A stretch of DNA of 64,000 nt from contig NZ_CP011267.1 of NCBI RefSeq assembly GCF_001006045.1, forward strand, positions 1,550,001-1,614,000, in the 5' to 3' direction. The stretch comes from Geoglobus ahangari (GTDB taxonomy: Archaea > Halobacteriota > Archaeoglobi > Archaeoglobales > Archaeoglobaceae). Position 1 is the first letter of the stretch; each line of letters opens with the position of its first letter. Positions 32,861 to 39,547 of this stretch are shown here, piece by piece. The notes below the pieces were generated by a model. That model searched no databases. It saw only the letters and a program-made list of their open reading frames with translations, and had not been told where the DNA came from. The translations under genes and the position numbers were made by a program.

Positions 32861-33802
32861 TCAGACGGAGAGATTCAGAACGATTTCGGCTATGTCCTCG
32901 CTGTATCCGAGGATTCTCTCGAATCCGTCCTGAATCCTCCTCACTTTCAGCGCGTCCTCAACCGAGCTGTGGTCGGCAACTGATGCTGGAGTGTACGACC
33001 TGACCATCCTGAAGACCTCTCTCGCGAGCTCCTCGTCTATCTTGAAGAAGGAGTTCATTGCCGTCCTGAATATCTCACCGGAAACTCTCGCAGTCTCTTC
33101 AAGCTCAGGTATCGCCTTTCCGTACTCCTTCAGGTTTATCGCCATTGTGTGGATGTGGTCTCCAACCCTCTCCACGTTCTTGAGCGTGATCCTCAGCCCG
33201 AGCACCTCCTTGGGGTGGATGTTGAGGTGGTCGGCGACATCCGGGTACCTCACCGCCGATTTTAGGAGCCTCAGGATCAGGAAGTACAACCTGTCAATCT
33301 CCTGCTCCCTCTGTATCACAACGTCGAGCAGATCTCTGTCAAACTCGACAAGGGCTCTTCCGAAGTCGTCGATCATCGCAAATACTGTGTTGCTCATCTT
33401 TTCCAGCAGCTCCTCGACCCTGAACCTGCGCTCGTCCGTGAATATCTCGATCCAGATAGAGTTCCCCGAATCCTCCAGAATCTCAGCTCCTATCAGCATC
33501 GAGACCGCCCTGTACACTCCCTCCCTCCCCCTGCTGTCCGCTTTCACCCTTATCGTCGTGTAGCCTGCGAGATAGTGGGAGATTATCTTCCTGATGAGCA
33601 TGTCCCTGTCCCGCTCGTCCTCTATGACAGCCTCGCTCACCCTCCTTACTTCTGTGTGCGGCTGGATGAGAATGGATGTCTTTCCGACTGTGCAGAAAAC
33701 GGTGTCTCCCGGCTTTATTGAGTTGGCAACCACCCACTCCTTGGGCAGAGAGATTATGTAGCTCGAGCCCGAGACAAATACCTTCCTTGACAGTCTCTGC
33801 AT
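32861..33802 (-). CDS. AbrB-PhoU phosphate-uptake regulator
   Basis: 313 residues. The N-terminal SpoVT/AbrB swapped-hairpin domain is QRLSRKVFVSGSSYIISLPKEWV and SIKPGDTVFC; then two PhoU-type helical repeats (about 100-205 and 215-310), including NVERVGDHIHTMAINLKEYG. Such fusions are taken to be transcriptional regulators of phosphate transport in archaea. It lies near, but separated by a glycosyltransferase from, the pst operon, whose promoter carries related repeats. Start ATG 33802 (MQRLSRKVF); further upstream frame runs through the promoter. Second PhoU gene of the region. Confidence 0.85.
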   Translation of the reverse strand: MQRLSRKVFVSGSSYIISLPKEWVVANSIKPGDTVFCTVGKTSILIQPHTEVRRVSEAVIEDERDRDMLIRKIISHYLAGYTTIRVKADSRGREGVYRAVSMLIGAEILEDSGNSIWIEIFTDERRFRVEELLEKMSNTVFAMIDDFGRALVEFDRDLLDVVIQREQEIDRLYFLILRLLKSAVRYPDVADHLNIHPKEVLGLRITLKNVERVGDHIHTMAINLKEYGKAIPELEETARVSGEIFRTAMNSFFKIDEELAREVFRMVRSYTPASVADHSSVEDALKVRRIQDGFERILGYSEDIAEIVLNLSV

Positions 33803-33833
33803 GATATAGACAGGTATAGACTGGTATATAAGG
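33803..33833 (-). promoter_or_regulatory. Promoter and tandem 10-bp operator repeat of the AbrB-PhoU gene
   Basis: On the + strand TATAGACAGG (33805-33814) is directly followed by TATAGACTGG (33815-33824); read with the gene this is CCAGTCTATA-CCTGTCTATA. A TATA box CTTATATACC (33823-33832, minus strand) abuts it, and the repeats fill the space to the ATG, covering the expected transcription start. This is a typical repressor/autoregulation position. Confidence 0.6.
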
Positions 33834-34889
33834 CTACCCCACCTTCCACCCCTCTGCTGACACCTCCTTGCCAACGAGCCTCAGGATGAGGTACCTGAAG
33901 AGCATGGCCACGTTGACCATCGTCCAGAGCGGAGAGTAGAGGAAGTAGTAGACGGGTAGAATCCCCGTGTCCAGCCTGAAACCGTACTTTCTCGCCACGA
34001 GTGCGACGAACATCACCCATAACACGAACGATACAACCATTGCGAGGATGTTCCTGAGCAGGTGGAACTCGAATACGAGCAGCATGAATATCGCAACCGC
34101 CTTCACTGGTAGGCTAAGCAGCAGGGGAAGCAGAAAGTACAGGAGCTTGATCGCGATGCTGTCCGGGAGGAACATGGCTAACAGGAATCCGACAATGGCG
34201 GGGTAGTAGAGGACGAGCATCGGCAGAACTATCCTCGGCATCCTCAGGAACTTTGGGAGAAACTCTGCGAACAGCTCCGCACCGCCGAGAGCCCACCGCT
34301 CCCTCTGCCTGAACCACTCCTTCAGGGTGGACGGAGCCTTGGTCACAGCCCTGCCACTGACAGCAACCCTGTACCCCTCGAACCCTGCCCTGAACCCGAA
34401 GTCGGCGTCCTCTATTATCTTCGGCCTGAATCCCAGCCTCTTCACAACATCCGACCTTGAGATGAACGCCGAGCCGTTCACCATGCTGAATCCGAGAATC
34501 TTCGAGGAAATCCTCGCGGAGACGTTCATGAGCAGGTAATCGACCGCCACAAGCCTCTCCACGATACTCCTGCCCCTGACCTCCTTCGTCAGCTCCACAA
34601 CATCGCTGGAGGGGTTCGGGATGTCAATGAGCCTGGTGTCGGAGTCGACGAAGAGCACGTAGTCTCCGGTCACAAGCTCGAGCGCGTCGTTCAGGGCCTT
34701 CCATTTCCCCCTCCTCACATCGCTGAGCGTTGCCTTGACGCCCAACTCTCTGACCCTCCTGACGTCCTCCTCGCTGAGACAGTCGGCACTCACGACCACC
34801 TCGTATCCCCTTTTGGCGAGATCTTCGACAATCTCGAATAGAAACTCGGGTTCCCTGTATGCTGTGACGACTGCGGACATCTTTGCCAT
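33834..34889 (-). CDS. Membrane glycosyltransferase, family 2
   Basis: 351-residue GT2 enzyme. The cytoplasmic GT-A domain shows VVTAYREPEFL at the start, DXD-type VLFVDSDTR, the acidic IIEDADFGFR, and QRERW of processive/inverting GT2 enzymes; about four to five hydrophobic helices follow (residues 205-340). Likely transfers sugar to a lipid or polysaccharide at the cytoplasmic membrane. Acceptor unknown. Leaderless-type start with CTTTTAAAAC upstream on the minus strand. It sits between the phosphate regulator and the divergent pst operon. Confidence 0.85.
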   Translation of the reverse strand: MAKMSAVVTAYREPEFLFEIVEDLAKRGYEVVVSADCLSEEDVRRVRELGVKATLSDVRRGKWKALNDALELVTGDYVLFVDSDTRLIDIPNPSSDVVELTKEVRGRSIVERLVAVDYLLMNVSARISSKILGFSMVNGSAFISRSDVVKRLGFRPKIIEDADFGFRAGFEGYRVAVSGRAVTKAPSTLKEWFRQRERWALGGAELFAEFLPKFLRMPRIVLPMLVLYYPAIVGFLLAMFLPDSIAIKLLYFLLPLLLSLPVKAVAIFMLLVFEFHLLRNILAMVVSFVLWVMFVALVARKYGFRLDTGILPVYYFLYSPLWTMVNVAMLFRYLILRLVGKEVSAEGWKVG

Positions 34890-34990
34890 TTGCCCAGCAT
34901 GAAACCCCGGGTTTTAAAAGTAAAGCGATAGTTTTTCGTTGCGGAGCCTCTACCGCCCTGCCCGTATCTCTGTCGTACTGATTGATAAGT

Positions 34991-35044
34991 ATCGGGTAGA
35001 TGTGTATAGATCGGATAGATAATCTATTGGCAACAGCTATATCC
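34991..35044 (+). promoter_or_regulatory. pst operon promoter with TAGAT repeats and palindrome
   Basis: TAGAT occurs at 34997-35001, 35007-35011 and 35016-35020, about one helical turn apart. TATAGATCGG (35005-35014) matches the TATAGACWGG repeats of the AbrB-PhoU promoter. It is followed by the perfect palindrome ATAGAT-A-ATCTAT (35015-35027). A TATA-like GCTATATCC (35037-35045) lies 21-29 nt before the pstS ATG. The elements sit upstream of the TATA box, an activator-type or BRE-overlapping position. Confidence 0.55.
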
Positions 35045-35065
35045 TGCCAGTATCACCAGACCAAC

Positions 35066-36031
35066 ATGAAACGCACCACGGCAATACTGCTGGCAGCACT
35101 TCTCTCAGCTTTGCTGATCTCAGGCTGCAGCCAGAGCGGTGAAGGTGAGAAAGCGTCTATCTCTGGGGAGGTGAAGATCTCCGGGAGTTCCACCGTGTAT
35201 CCTGTCACGATGGCAATAGCTGAGGAGTTCAGCAGGCTATATCCAGACGTCACGGTGTCCGTGCAGTCCACAGGCACCGGCGGAGGGTTCAAGAACTTCT
35301 TCATCCCGGGGCTGGTGGACATAAACGATGCGAGCAGGAAGATCAAGCAGAGCGAGCTTGAAGCTGCGAAGGAGAACGGCATTGAGCCTGTCGAGTTCCT
35401 CATTGGCTATGACGCCCTAACAGTCATCGTGAACAGGGAGAACGACTGGATAGACTGCCTGAGCTTTGAAGAGCTTAAGAAGATCTGGGGGCCCGAGGCG
35501 ACAGGGAAGGTGACAAGGTGGAGTGACGTGAACACGAGCTGGCCGGACGAGGAGATGCACCTCTACGGGCCCACCTCTTCTTCAGGAACCTTCGACTTCT
35601 TCACGGAGCACGTTATAGGTGAGGCCGGAGCCCACAGGCAGGACTATCACGGAACGGAAGAGGACAACACGATAATTGCCGCTGTCGAAAGGGACAGGTA
35701 CGCGATGGGCTACCTTGGCCTCGCATACTACCTGGAGAACAAGGACAAGGTGAAGGCGATCAAGATAAAGAACCCTGAGACGGGAGTGTGTGTTGAGCCA
35801 TCAATAGAGACCGGGCAGAGCGGAGAGTACCCGCTTGCAAGACCGCTGTTCATCTACGTCAGCAAGGAGTCCCTGAAGAAGCCGGCAGTCAGGGAGTTCG
35901 TGAAGTTCTACCTCGAGAATCTTGACAGCGGGATAGTTGAGGAGGTAGGGTACGTCCCCGTGAGCAAAGAGGTGAAGGAGCAGAACCTCAAGAAGCTGAA
36001 CGAGATTCTCAAAGAGCTCGGAGTTGAGTGA
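35066..36031 (+). CDS. pstS: Phosphate ABC transporter substrate-binding lipoprotein
   Basis: 321 residues. Signal peptide ending in the lipobox ISGC (Cys21), then the phosphate-binding signature VKISGSSTVYPVT and YGPTSSSGTFDFF. It captures extracellular phosphate for PstCAB. Start ATG 35066 gives a normal lipoprotein signal; an upstream in-frame ATG (35000) lies inside the repeat-containing promoter and would disrupt the signal peptide. First gene of pstSCAB-arsC-phoU. Confidence 0.95.
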   Translation: MKRTTAILLAALLSALLISGCSQSGEGEKASISGEVKISGSSTVYPVTMAIAEEFSRLYPDVTVSVQSTGTGGGFKNFFIPGLVDINDASRKIKQSELEAAKENGIEPVEFLIGYDALTVIVNRENDWIDCLSFEELKKIWGPEATGKVTRWSDVNTSWPDEEMHLYGPTSSSGTFDFFTEHVIGEAGAHRQDYHGTEEDNTIIAAVERDRYAMGYLGLAYYLENKDKVKAIKIKNPETGVCVEPSIETGQSGEYPLARPLFIYVSKESLKKPAVREFVKFYLENLDSGIVEEVGYVPVSKEVKEQNLKKLNEILKELGVE

Positions 36032-36043
36032 GGGGGTGGAGCG

Positions 36044-36943
36044 GTGAGAGCCCAGAGAGCAAGGGAGCGAGCGATCCACGTCCTTTTATTTATCTCTGCT
36101 CTCCTGACAGTCGGCGTCACTCTCGGGATAATTCTGACGCTCTTCGCCGACACTGTGACATTCTTCCGGAACGTGTCGCCCATCGAGTTCTTCACCGGAA
36201 CAAAGTGGAGCCCCACGATAAAGCCGTACTCTTACGGCGTTCTGCCGCTGGTGGCTGGTACGATAATGGTGACTGTGGGTGCGGGGGCCATAGCGATCCC
36301 CGTTGGACTGCTCTCGGCAATTTACCTGAGCGAGTATGCGAGTGAGAGGACGAGGAGTATACTCAAGCCCATGCTCGAGATACTCGCCGGAATTCCGACA
36401 GTTGTTTACGGCTTTTTCGCGTTCGCATACATAACTCCGTTTTTGAAGGGTCTGTTTCCCGACATCTCGGCCTACAACGTCCTTAGCGCTTCGGTGGTGG
36501 TTGGGATAATGATAATCCCGATCGTGGCGAGCATCAGCGAGGACGCGCTCAGAGCGGTGCCGAGGTCGCTGAGAGAGGCTGGATACGCACTCGGGGCGAG
36601 GAAGGTCAGGGTGATCTGGAGCATAGTCGTGCCATCCGCCCTCTCCGGAATAGTGGCGAGCTTCATCCTCGGAATATCGAGGGCGATTGGTGAGACCATG
36701 GCCGTCACGATAGCGGCAGGCAGAACGCCGAGGCTGGTGAACCCGCTGAACCCAGCGGACTGGCTGAAGCCCATAGAGACGATGACCGCGGCGATGGTGG
36801 AGATAGGTCTGAGTGACGTGAGCGGGCACAGCATCGCCTACAAGAGCCTGTTTGCGATAGGCTTCACGCTCTTCCTCATGACCATGGCCCTCAACACTGT
36901 CAGCTATTACATCAAGATGAGGTTCAGGGAGGTGTACAGATGA
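36044..36943 (+). CDS. pstC: Phosphate ABC transporter permease PstC
   Basis: 299-residue permease with six membrane helices. The binding-protein-dependent transport EAA loop is recognisable as SLREAGYALGARKVRVIWSI. Starts with GTG 36044 preceded by GGAGCG; 12 nt after pstS. Overlaps pstA by ATGA. Confidence 0.95.
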   Translation: MRAQRARERAIHVLLFISALLTVGVTLGIILTLFADTVTFFRNVSPIEFFTGTKWSPTIKPYSYGVLPLVAGTIMVTVGAGAIAIPVGLLSAIYLSEYASERTRSILKPMLEILAGIPTVVYGFFAFAYITPFLKGLFPDISAYNVLSASVVVGIMIIPIVASISEDALRAVPRSLREAGYALGARKVRVIWSIVVPSALSGIVASFILGISRAIGETMAVTIAAGRTPRLVNPLNPADWLKPIETMTAAMVEIGLSDVSGHSIAYKSLFAIGFTLFLMTMALNTVSYYIKMRFREVYR

Positions 36944-37794
36944 GGGGTGAGGAGGTCAGAGAGAAGCTCTTCATGCTCCTCGCGCTTCTCGCAACGCTGT
37001 TCGGGATTGTCATCCTCGCGTTTCTCCTCGCGTTCACGTTCTATGAAGCGTTGCCATGGCTTGACTGGCAGTTCCTGACCTCACCTCCGTCAAGGTTCCC
37101 GGAGAGGGCGGGGATATACCCCTCGCTCGTCGGGTCTGTGATGGCCATAGCGCTCGTGGGCGTGTTCTCAGTACCCCTTGGCGTTGGGGCGGCAATATAC
37201 CTTGAAGAGTACGCGAGGAGGAGCAGAATTGCGAAGCTGATAGAGATCAACATATCCAACCTCGCCGCGGTGCCTTCCATAGTCTACGGGCTCCTCGGAC
37301 TCGGGCTGTTCGTCTCAACGCTCCACCTCAGGCCGGGGATAGTCCTCGTCGGTGCGCTGACACTCACGCTGCTGATCCTGCCAATAATAATCGTCGCCGC
37401 ACAGGAGGCGTTGAGGAGTGTCCCCGACTCCCTCAGGGAAGCCTCAATTGGACTTGGAGCGACGAGGTGGCAGACCGTCAGGAACGTGGTTCTCCCGAGT
37501 GCAATGCCGGGGATACTCACGGGGGTGATACTCGCCCTGTCGAGGGCCATAGGCGAAACCGCTCCGCTCATAATGATAGGGGCGGCGACGAGCATATTCA
37601 CCCCGCCGAAGAGCATATTCAGCACCTACTCTCCCCTGCCAATGCAGATATTCATGTGGACGGACATGCCGAAGGAGGAGTTCCTGCACGGCCTCGCGCC
37701 GGCTGGAATAATTGTTCTACTCGCAGTCATGCTGTCCATGAACGCGTTTGCCGTGTACCTCAGAAACAGGTATGCCAGAAAGCTCAGGAGGTGA
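36940..37794 (+). CDS. pstA: Phosphate ABC transporter permease PstA
   Basis: 284 residues, six membrane helices, with the EAA loop [20 protein letters not shown] and the family segment [18 protein letters not shown]. Pairs with PstC to form the phosphate channel. Its stop lies 4 nt before the pstB start. Confidence 0.95.
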
Positions 37795-37798
37795 GTTC

Positions 37799-38554
37799 GT
37801 GAAGCCCGTGTTTGACGTGAGAAACCTGTCCGTCTATTACGGAAACAAGGTTGGAATAAAGAGCGTGAGCATGCAGATCTACAAGAACAGGGTCACCGCG
37901 ATAATAGGTCCGAGCGGGTGTGGAAAGTCAACATTCCTGAGAACCCTGAACAGGCTGGTCGAGCTTGTTGATGGTGTGAGGGTGGAAGGAGAGGTTCTGT
38001 TCGAGGGAAAGAACATATACGACCGCGATGTTGACCCCGTGGAGCTCAGGAGGAAGATCGGCATGGTGTTCCAGCACCCCAACCCGTTTCCAAAGAGCAT
38101 ATTTGACAACGTGGCGTACGGGCCGAGAGTCCACGGGATAAGGGATAAGGAGAGGTTGAGAGAGATTGTTGAGCAGAGCCTAAAGAGGGCTGCCCTCTGG
38201 GACGAGGTAAAGGACAGGCTGAACGACTCTGCCCTTGGGCTTTCCGGCGGGCAGCAGCAGAGGCTGTGCATCGCGAGAGCAATAGCAACGAACCCCGAGG
38301 TGATTCTGTTCGACGAGCCGACCTCTGCTCTGGATCCGATCGCATCGGCAAAGATAGAGGAGCTGATGGTGGAGCTCAAGAAGAACTACACGGTCATAGT
38401 GGTCACCCACAACATACAGCAGGCCGCGAGGATAAGCGACTACACCGCGTTCTTCTGGATGGGGGAGCTCATTGAGTACGACAGGACGGAGAAGATATTT
38501 GAAAACCCCGAGAACGAATTGACGGAGAGGTACATAACGGGGAGAGTCGGATGA
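37799..38554 (+). CDS. pstB: Phosphate ABC transporter ATPase PstB
   Basis: 251-residue ATPase: Walker [12 protein letters not shown]-loop [11 protein letters not shown] (PstB-specific), signature [10 protein letters not shown], Walker [14 protein letters not shown]. Start GTG 37799 is set by GGAGGTGA 4 nt upstream; the frame upstream belongs to pstA. Overlaps the arsC-like gene by ATGA. Confidence 0.96.
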
Positions 38555-38946
38555 GGGTTCTGTTCGTGTGTGTGGAGAACACGTGCAGGAGCGTTATGGC
38601 AGAGGCGGTGTTCAACAGAATGGCAAGAAGGTGGAGGGCAGAGAGTGCCGGCCTTAAGGCTGGAGGGGAATACGACTCGATGGCGCTGAGGGTTCTCGAG
38701 GAGAGGGGCTACGAGGTTGTGAACAGAGAGCCGAGGAGCCTTGACTCTGTGAGGCTGGAGGACTACGCTCTTGTCGTGACGGTGTGTGATGAGAGCCTCT
38801 GCGTTTCAATCAACCATCCGCGCGTTGAAAGGTGGAGTGTTGAGGATCCAAAGGGTGGGAGCAGGGAGGATTACGTCAGAACCCTCGAGGAGCTTGAGAA
38901 GAGGGTTGCAGATCTTGTAAGGAGGTTGGAAGATGAGGGTGCTTGA
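38551..38946 (+). CDS. arsC: Thioredoxin-type arsenate reductase / low-MW phosphatase family
   Basis: 131-residue protein with the P-loop CVENTCR (Cys7-x5-Arg13) of low-molecular-weight tyrosine phosphatases. Two further cysteines, Cys79 and Cys84 in VTVCDESLC, and RWSVEDPKG match the redox relay and the DP motif of thioredoxin-coupled arsenate reductases, which favours ArsC over a phosphatase. Located inside the pst operon between pstB and phoU (overlaps 4 and 14 nt), it could deal with arsenate that enters through the phosphate transporter (inference). Confidence 0.8.
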
Positions 38947-39547
38947 GGAGAGGCTTGGAAGAATTAGGGGAGAGCTGCTGGAGCTTCACGCTCTGTCGAA
39001 GAAGGCTGTGGCGCTGTGCCTTGATGCGATGTACGGGGAGGAGGTTGCGAAGTACGAGGTGGAGAAGATAGAGCGTCAGGCAGACGTCATGAACAGCGAC
39101 ATAGAGAACGATGCATTATCGGCCGTGGCACTTTTTCAGCCGGTAGCAAAGGATCTCAGGTTCCTTGCAACAGTTATGAGACTTTCCGGAAACTATGAGA
39201 GGATAACCGACCTTGCTCTGAAGATTGCGAGGTTCAGCGTTGAAAGCGACTTCTGCAGGGGAAAGATTGAGGCGATGCACAGAACCGTGATCGAGATGTT
39301 CGACATAGTTGAGGCAGCGCTGAAGGGGGACATGAGGAACATGCGCGACGAACTCGTCTTCAGAGACGACAGGATAGACCGGTTGAAGGAGGAAGTCATA
39401 AAGGACGCAGAGGGGAGAACGCTCGATATGGACACCCTGAGCATCGTTTTTTCAGCAACACACCTCGAGAGGATTGGAGATATTCTGAGTAAGAACGGAG
39501 CGAGGATTATTTTCATAGAGGAGGGACGCAGGGTCTGGATAAAGTGA
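38933..39547 (+). CDS. phoU: Phosphate transport regulator PhoU
   Basis: 204-residue all-helical PhoU with two tandem three-helix repeats. The metal-binding motifs are VMRLSGNYERITDLALKIARF in the first and ATHLERIGDILSKNGARI in the second. It modulates PstSCAB and phosphate signalling. Last gene of the pst operon; unlike the protein at 32861-33802 it has no DNA-binding domain. Confidence 0.92.
   Translation: MRVLEERLGRIRGELLELHALSKKAVALCLDAMYGEEVAKYEVEKIERQADVMNSDIENDALSAVALFQPVAKDLRFLATVMRLSGNYERITDLALKIARFSVESDFCRGKIEAMHRTVIEMFDIVEAALKGDMRNMRDELVFRDDRIDRLKEEVIKDAEGRTLDMDTLSIVFSATHLERIGDILSKNGARIIFIEEGRRVWIK

Follow-up and report, generated by a model that had tools for sequence, protein, structure and literature searches.

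The locus described here raises the question of which DNA sites are read by AbrB-PhoU, a protein of the archaeon Geoglobus ahangari that joins a MazE/AbrB-type domain to a PhoU domain. The window, the whole stretch of 64,000 nucleotides that was analysed (NZ_CP011267.1, positions 1,550,001 to 1,614,000), contains the gene for this protein and the pst operon for phosphate uptake, with repeats in both promoters. A preliminary description had proposed that the protein binds a shared motif, TATAGAYNGG, and thereby represses itself and controls pst. Comparison across the Archaeoglobales makes it fairly probable that repeats of the TATAG type are operators of AbrB-PhoU, serving autoregulation and the control of phosphate uptake. 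Binding by the protein, autorepression, phosphate as the signal and the sign of the effect at pst are what we infer from this pattern.

Repeats at two promoters of one locus

The features on which the argument rests are the following (positions in the window).

32861-33802, minus strand: AbrB-PhoU regulator gene (protein P0001), ATG at 33802-33800, a start that matches relatives
33803-33812, plus strand: leader repeat 1, GATATAGACA, abutting the start codon; the tandem pair is unique in the genome
33813-33822, plus strand: leader repeat 2, GGTATAGACT
33823-33832, plus strand: leader repeat 3, GGTATATAAG, overlapping the TATA box; a tandem hit with one mismatch
33805-33814, plus strand: 10-mer TATAGACAGG
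33815-33824, plus strand: 10-mer TATAGACTGG
33825-33831, read on the minus strand: TATA box of AbrB-PhoU
34997-35027, plus strand: pst site cluster, with TAGAT at 34997, 35007 and 35016 and ATCTA at 35022
35005-35014, plus strand: 10-mer TATAGATCGG in the pst promoter
35005-35028, plus strand: dyad TATAG-N14-CTATT in the pst promoter
35015-35027, plus strand: palindrome ATAGAT-A-ATCTAT
35037-35042, plus strand: CTATAT, presumed TATA box of pst, assigned from its spacing of about 26 bp to the ATG

The 10-mers that had been claimed, two in the leader and one at pst, are all in place, as are the TAGAT ladder and the palindrome at pst. The leader holds one more repeat than had been noticed: it consists of three 10-bp units (33803-33832), running outwards from the start codon, and in G. 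ahangari these sites occupy the interval between TATA box and start codon. At pst, successive TAGAT copies are spaced 10 and 9 bp, and about 10 bp separate the last site from the TATA box downstream. At AbrB-PhoU and pstS alike, the TATA box lies about 26 bp from the ATG, which makes it probable that the transcripts are leaderless.

Scanning of the G. ahangari genome (one contig, 1,770,093 bp) located a single TATAGA-N4-TATAGA in 1.77 Mb, that of the AbrB-PhoU leader; with two mismatches allowed the count rises to 65, of which three fall in the promoters of AbrB-PhoU and pst. Three or more TAGAT/ATCTA copies per 45 bp were found neither in a 400-kb sample of the genome nor in 245 control promoters, and the pst promoter has four. 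The arrangement TATAG..TATAGAY has four sites in the genome and TATAGAY..TCTAT has two, one of each at the AbrB-PhoU and pst promoters; the other tandem sites lie at 1148279 (within a reading frame), 1058973 and 477120. The site at G000:C1:1058973, TATAGTGATTATAGAT, lies some 12 bp ahead of a reading frame resembling an ion antiporter subunit.

The proposed 10-mer itself is not overrepresented in the genome as a whole. TATAGAYNGG has three matches in the window, against 0.42 expected from shuffles, and 11 in the whole genome, against 16 for the reversed control. Its placement is what distinguishes it: the eight copies outside these promoters are all within reading frames, and the two leader copies and the one before pstS are therefore the only intergenic copies in the genome.

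Conservation of the TATAG core

Conservation was assessed in 25 groups of Archaeoglobales promoters next to the orthologous AbrB-PhoU gene, with near-identical promoters merged and G. ahangari held out. Expectation-maximization motif finding on this promoter set returned alternating TATATA and no sharper consensus, and word counts were instead set against those in 245 control promoters, taken from six genomes, and in 106 AT-rich control promoters. TATAG occurs in 21.2 of the 25 groups (0.180 of controls), ATATAG in 21.0 (0.069), GTATATA in 19.2 (0.049), TATAGA in 12.8 (0.069, or 6.9%), TATAGAY in 8.8 (0.016) and TATAGNCA in 4.0 (0.012). The AT-rich controls contain TATAG, TATAGA and TATAGAY at 0.198, 0.094 and 0.038, respectively. 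Words of like composition are mostly enriched 1-3-fold in rate, with TATTGA at 5.7-fold. Binomial p-values overstate the conservation, because the groups share ancestry and some of these promoters had been viewed before the words were picked.

Two sets of promoters that were not used in motif discovery give a further view. In five genomes AbrB-PhoU is encoded inside the pst operon, and the pst promoters of these genomes contain TATAG in four cases and TATAGAY in three; in three of the five, a tandem CTATAGATT or a near copy of it is found just upstream of the pst TATA box. The second set comprises the upstream regions of 20 genes for a second AbrB-PhoU paralogue, which in G. ahangari is 28% identical to P0001. 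Here, TATAG is present in seven, TATAGA in two and GTATATA in one. The claim of a motif common to the AbrB-PhoU and pst promoters thus survives for the core, TATAG or TATAGAY, which is conserved in related pst promoters too and is rare at the controls and at the paralogue, but not for the 10-mer in full.

The upstream regions of the paralogue have a word of their own: in seven of the 20 genes (11 for TAYGTAT), TACGTAT is found no more than 60 bp ahead of the start, compared with about 1% of control promoters. On this sequence pattern, TACGTAT is a possible operator of the paralogue.

Several observations weigh against the TATAG repeats as operators of AbrB-PhoU. Among the promoters compared, the complete TATAGAYNGG is confined to G. 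ahangari, and the flanking GG is not conserved. TATAG is absent from three of the 25 groups and from one of the five operon-internal cases. The promoter groups share descent, and the counts are not fully independent. The pst 10-mer differs from the leader repeat by two mismatches, a likeness that 8 of 102 control promoters equal or exceed, so that by the 10-mer alone the link between the AbrB-PhoU and pst promoters is weak. Moreover, the sites vary in spacing and orientation, and part of the signal could be core-promoter sequence, since the sites overlap TATA-like sequence.

The poor match between the 10-mers, together with their lack of conservation in relatives, is what might be expected if two unrelated groups of repeats had been linked by chance. 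We consider this very improbable: it is disfavoured by the tandem pair, which is unique in the genome, by the TAGAT ladder, unparalleled in the 400-kb sample, and by a core that is conserved with G. ahangari held out and that recurs in the operon-internal cases.

The overlap with TATA-like sequence calls for a different consideration, namely that the initiator regions and the TATATA-rich TATA boxes of these promoters yield TATAG as a by-product. Strong enrichment of TATATA and GTATATA in the same promoters fits this view, as does the third leader repeat, which coincides with the TATA box, and TATAG lies just 3 standard deviations above dinucleotide shuffles of the promoters. However, ATATAG lies 6.9 standard deviations above them, control promoters with TATA boxes seldom have these words (TATAGAY is present in only 3.8% of the AT-rich controls), and at pst and in the operon-internal cases the clusters stand away from the TATA box. 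A pure core-promoter origin is, on this evidence, distinctly unlikely.

The arrangement of the sites differs between genomes. In the two genomes of genus g7, the region between the divergent promoters contains TATAG-N14-CTATA, an exact inverted repeat, and the dyad TATAG-N14-CTATT of G. ahangari differs from it by 1 bp in its distance to the pstS start. The intergenic region of A. fulgidus contains TATAT-N14-CTATA, and other genomes have direct repeats 8-11 bp apart. When the dyad spacing of TATAG-N14-CTATA was looked for throughout the order, it did not hold generally, and the data give no support for one fixed geometry of the operator. In several copies linked to a PiT-like gene, the ATG is directly adjoined by GGTATATAG(C/T)CA or a similar sequence, as it is by GATATAGACA in G. 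ahangari. In the window, the sites lie between TATA box and start at AbrB-PhoU and, as had been claimed, upstream of the TATA box at pst. Repeats that cover the start codon are not general, occurring in G. ahangari and in the Archaeoglobus copies beside a PiT-like gene.

The protein and its gene neighbourhood

AbrB-PhoU has a MazE/AbrB-type domain at residues 8-50 (PF04014, 38.3 bits against a gathering cut-off of 24.7) and a PhoU domain at residues 133-221 (PF01895, 64.5 bits, above the gathering score). In an alignment of 24 sequences, residues S14, L19, P20, K21 and W23 of the AbrB domain (the SLPK-W core) are invariant, as are E211 and D215 of the PhoU domain; E166-x-x-x-D170 is present in the Archaeoglobales rows. 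The structure model (mean pLDDT, predicted local distance difference test, 89) assigns a PhoU fold to the C-terminal part, with a Foldseek probability of 1.0 to solved PhoU structures and about 205 residues matching bacterial PhoU structures. The middle domain (residues 57-120; gene 32864-33802) has a beta-alpha-beta-alpha-beta-beta order that is Alba-like, and in a separate model of it (pLDDT 92.7) Alba/Sso10b is among the best Foldseek hits; with E-values of 0.04 or worse, this likeness is a lead only.

A match to the protein is found in 55 of the 57 genomes of the order, paralogues included. In most genomes that have the orthologue, it is the divergent neighbour of a pstS-type gene, with gaps mostly of 97-194 bp (277 bp in G031), and the arrangement is kept even where the binding protein belongs to a different PstS type. 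In genus g11 and one g4 genome, AbrB-PhoU is the final gene of a pstSCAB-phoU operon. Seven copies in the genus Archaeoglobus (g2) are divergent from a gene that resembles a PiT transporter (translation judged by eye). Because the closest g2 copies are placed in this way, the family may control low-affinity uptake too. Judged by gene order, AbrB-PhoU is linked to pst or to a PiT-like gene throughout the order.

This linkage bears on the idea that another regulator, responsive to phosphate and encoded elsewhere, uses the TATAG repeats as its operators, with AbrB-PhoU as one of its targets and a PhoU-like modulator. Such a regulator is compatible with the operon-internal cases, in which the motif follows the transporter promoters. 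It appears unlikely, given that AbrB-PhoU itself possesses a DNA-binding domain, that its gene is the one linked to the transporter genes throughout the order, and that tandem repeats fill its own promoter. Near the start codons of the paralogue, moreover, a different word is found, which would be expected were each protein to recognise a site of its own.

The locus in G. ahangari departs from the divergent arrangement by an inserted gene that the preliminary description had overlooked. The neighbouring genes are listed below.

33834-34889, minus strand: glycosyltransferase gene (Pfam family 2 glycosyltransferase) between AbrB-PhoU and pstS
35066-36031, plus strand: pstS, first gene of the pst operon (TIGR02136, 301 bits)
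36044-39547, plus strand: pstC, pstA, pstB, a low-molecular-weight (LMW) phosphatase/ArsC-like gene and phoU, the remaining pst operon (profile matches)

The glycosyltransferase gene separates the AbrB-PhoU and pst promoters, both of which still bear the motif; its stop codon is 2 bp from the AbrB-PhoU TATA box. It is not at this place in relatives with a divergent AbrB-PhoU/pstS pair. In two other Geoglobus genomes, G027 and, where covered, G026, the order sugar kinase, UPF gene, MAT, AbrB-PhoU and pst operon is the same as in the window, and in G027 it runs on to DHH, ferredoxin and AOR as in G. ahangari, without the glycosyltransferase gene. In the incomplete genome G029, MAT, the glycosyltransferase gene and the DHH gene are side by side, and AbrB-PhoU and pst are absent; the nearest relative of the glycosyltransferase (61%) is the one at this same locus, between MAT and the DHH gene. 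The simplest history would place the arrival of the gene in the divergent promoter region ahead of the split between G. ahangari and G029. We read the state of G029 as a later loss of AbrB-PhoU and pst, the neighbours of the glycosyltransferase gene; other histories are possible for both events.

A proposed switch and its known counterparts

With AbrB-PhoU as the protein that reads the repeats, we propose the following mechanism. Dimers of the AbrB domain would bind TATAG-centred half-sites, with TATAGAY as the best form, and direct repeats 9-11 bp apart or inverted repeats would place neighbouring dimers on one face of the DNA. Archaeal repressors usually bind between TATA box and start codon, whereas a position just upstream of the TATA box suits an activator or a factor that blocks TFB. 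Since the leader of AbrB-PhoU is occupied by three 10-bp repeats all the way from TATA box to start codon, self-repression is expected: AbrB-PhoU bound there would block TBP or the polymerase and thereby hold down its own production. Bound upstream of the TATA box at pst, the factor may recruit TFB/TBP or keep them away. Phosphate status would be sensed by the PhoU part, directly or via the Pst complex or a separate PhoU, with a change in DNA binding as the outcome. The positions of the sites thus speak for a single protein that represses its own gene and controls pst in dependence on phosphate.

A broader scheme, which we put forward tentatively and regard as rather doubtful, is an order-wide one-component phosphate switch in which the position of the repeats sets the sign, with autorepression from sites between TATA box and start and activation of pst from sites upstream of the TATA box. 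The paralogue would then read the TA-alternating palindrome TACGTAT for a separate regulon.

The literature searched assigns no phosphate regulator-operator pair in archaea beyond the halophiles and, in keeping with the preliminary description, contains no such binding motif for Archaeoglobales. The comparative evidence names a concrete operator candidate for a widespread protein, one that stays with the transporter genes through rearrangements. In G. ahangari, where an inserted gene has parted the promoters, the two proposed roles of AbrB-PhoU are separable, and binding and regulation can be tested on short synthetic DNA.

Bacterial PhoU is not known to have a DNA-binding domain. The C-terminal part of AbrB-PhoU shares with it the fold and the E-x-x-x-D metal motifs; AbrB-PhoU itself scores below the cut-off of the full-length model TIGR02135 (41.6 against 130.25). 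TK2245 of Thermococcus kodakarensis is, according to the accessible text, a chromosome-associated SpoVT/AbrB family protein with a PhoU domain (PMC7325993); the same two domains are named there, with neither operator nor regulon mentioned, and the likeness is one of description. In haloarchaea, the accessible text describes PhoU transcription factors and pho-boxes, including those of pst1 and pst2 in Halobacterium salinarum (Furtwangler et al. 2010, as cited in PMC6560208), and PhoU2 of Haloferax volcanii is HVO_2374 (PMC6267482). The likeness to the Archaeoglobales system lies in the boxes at pst promoters, described there as PhoU binding motifs (PMC6560208). The Archaeoglobales sites are centred on TATAG and, in G. 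ahangari, also fill the regulator's own promoter. A box conserved within the Archaeoglobales is present at pst, and AbrB-PhoU shows further features of a one-component Pho regulator of the haloarchaeal PhoU2 type, with an N-terminal DNA-binding domain, a C-terminal PhoU domain and linkage to pst.
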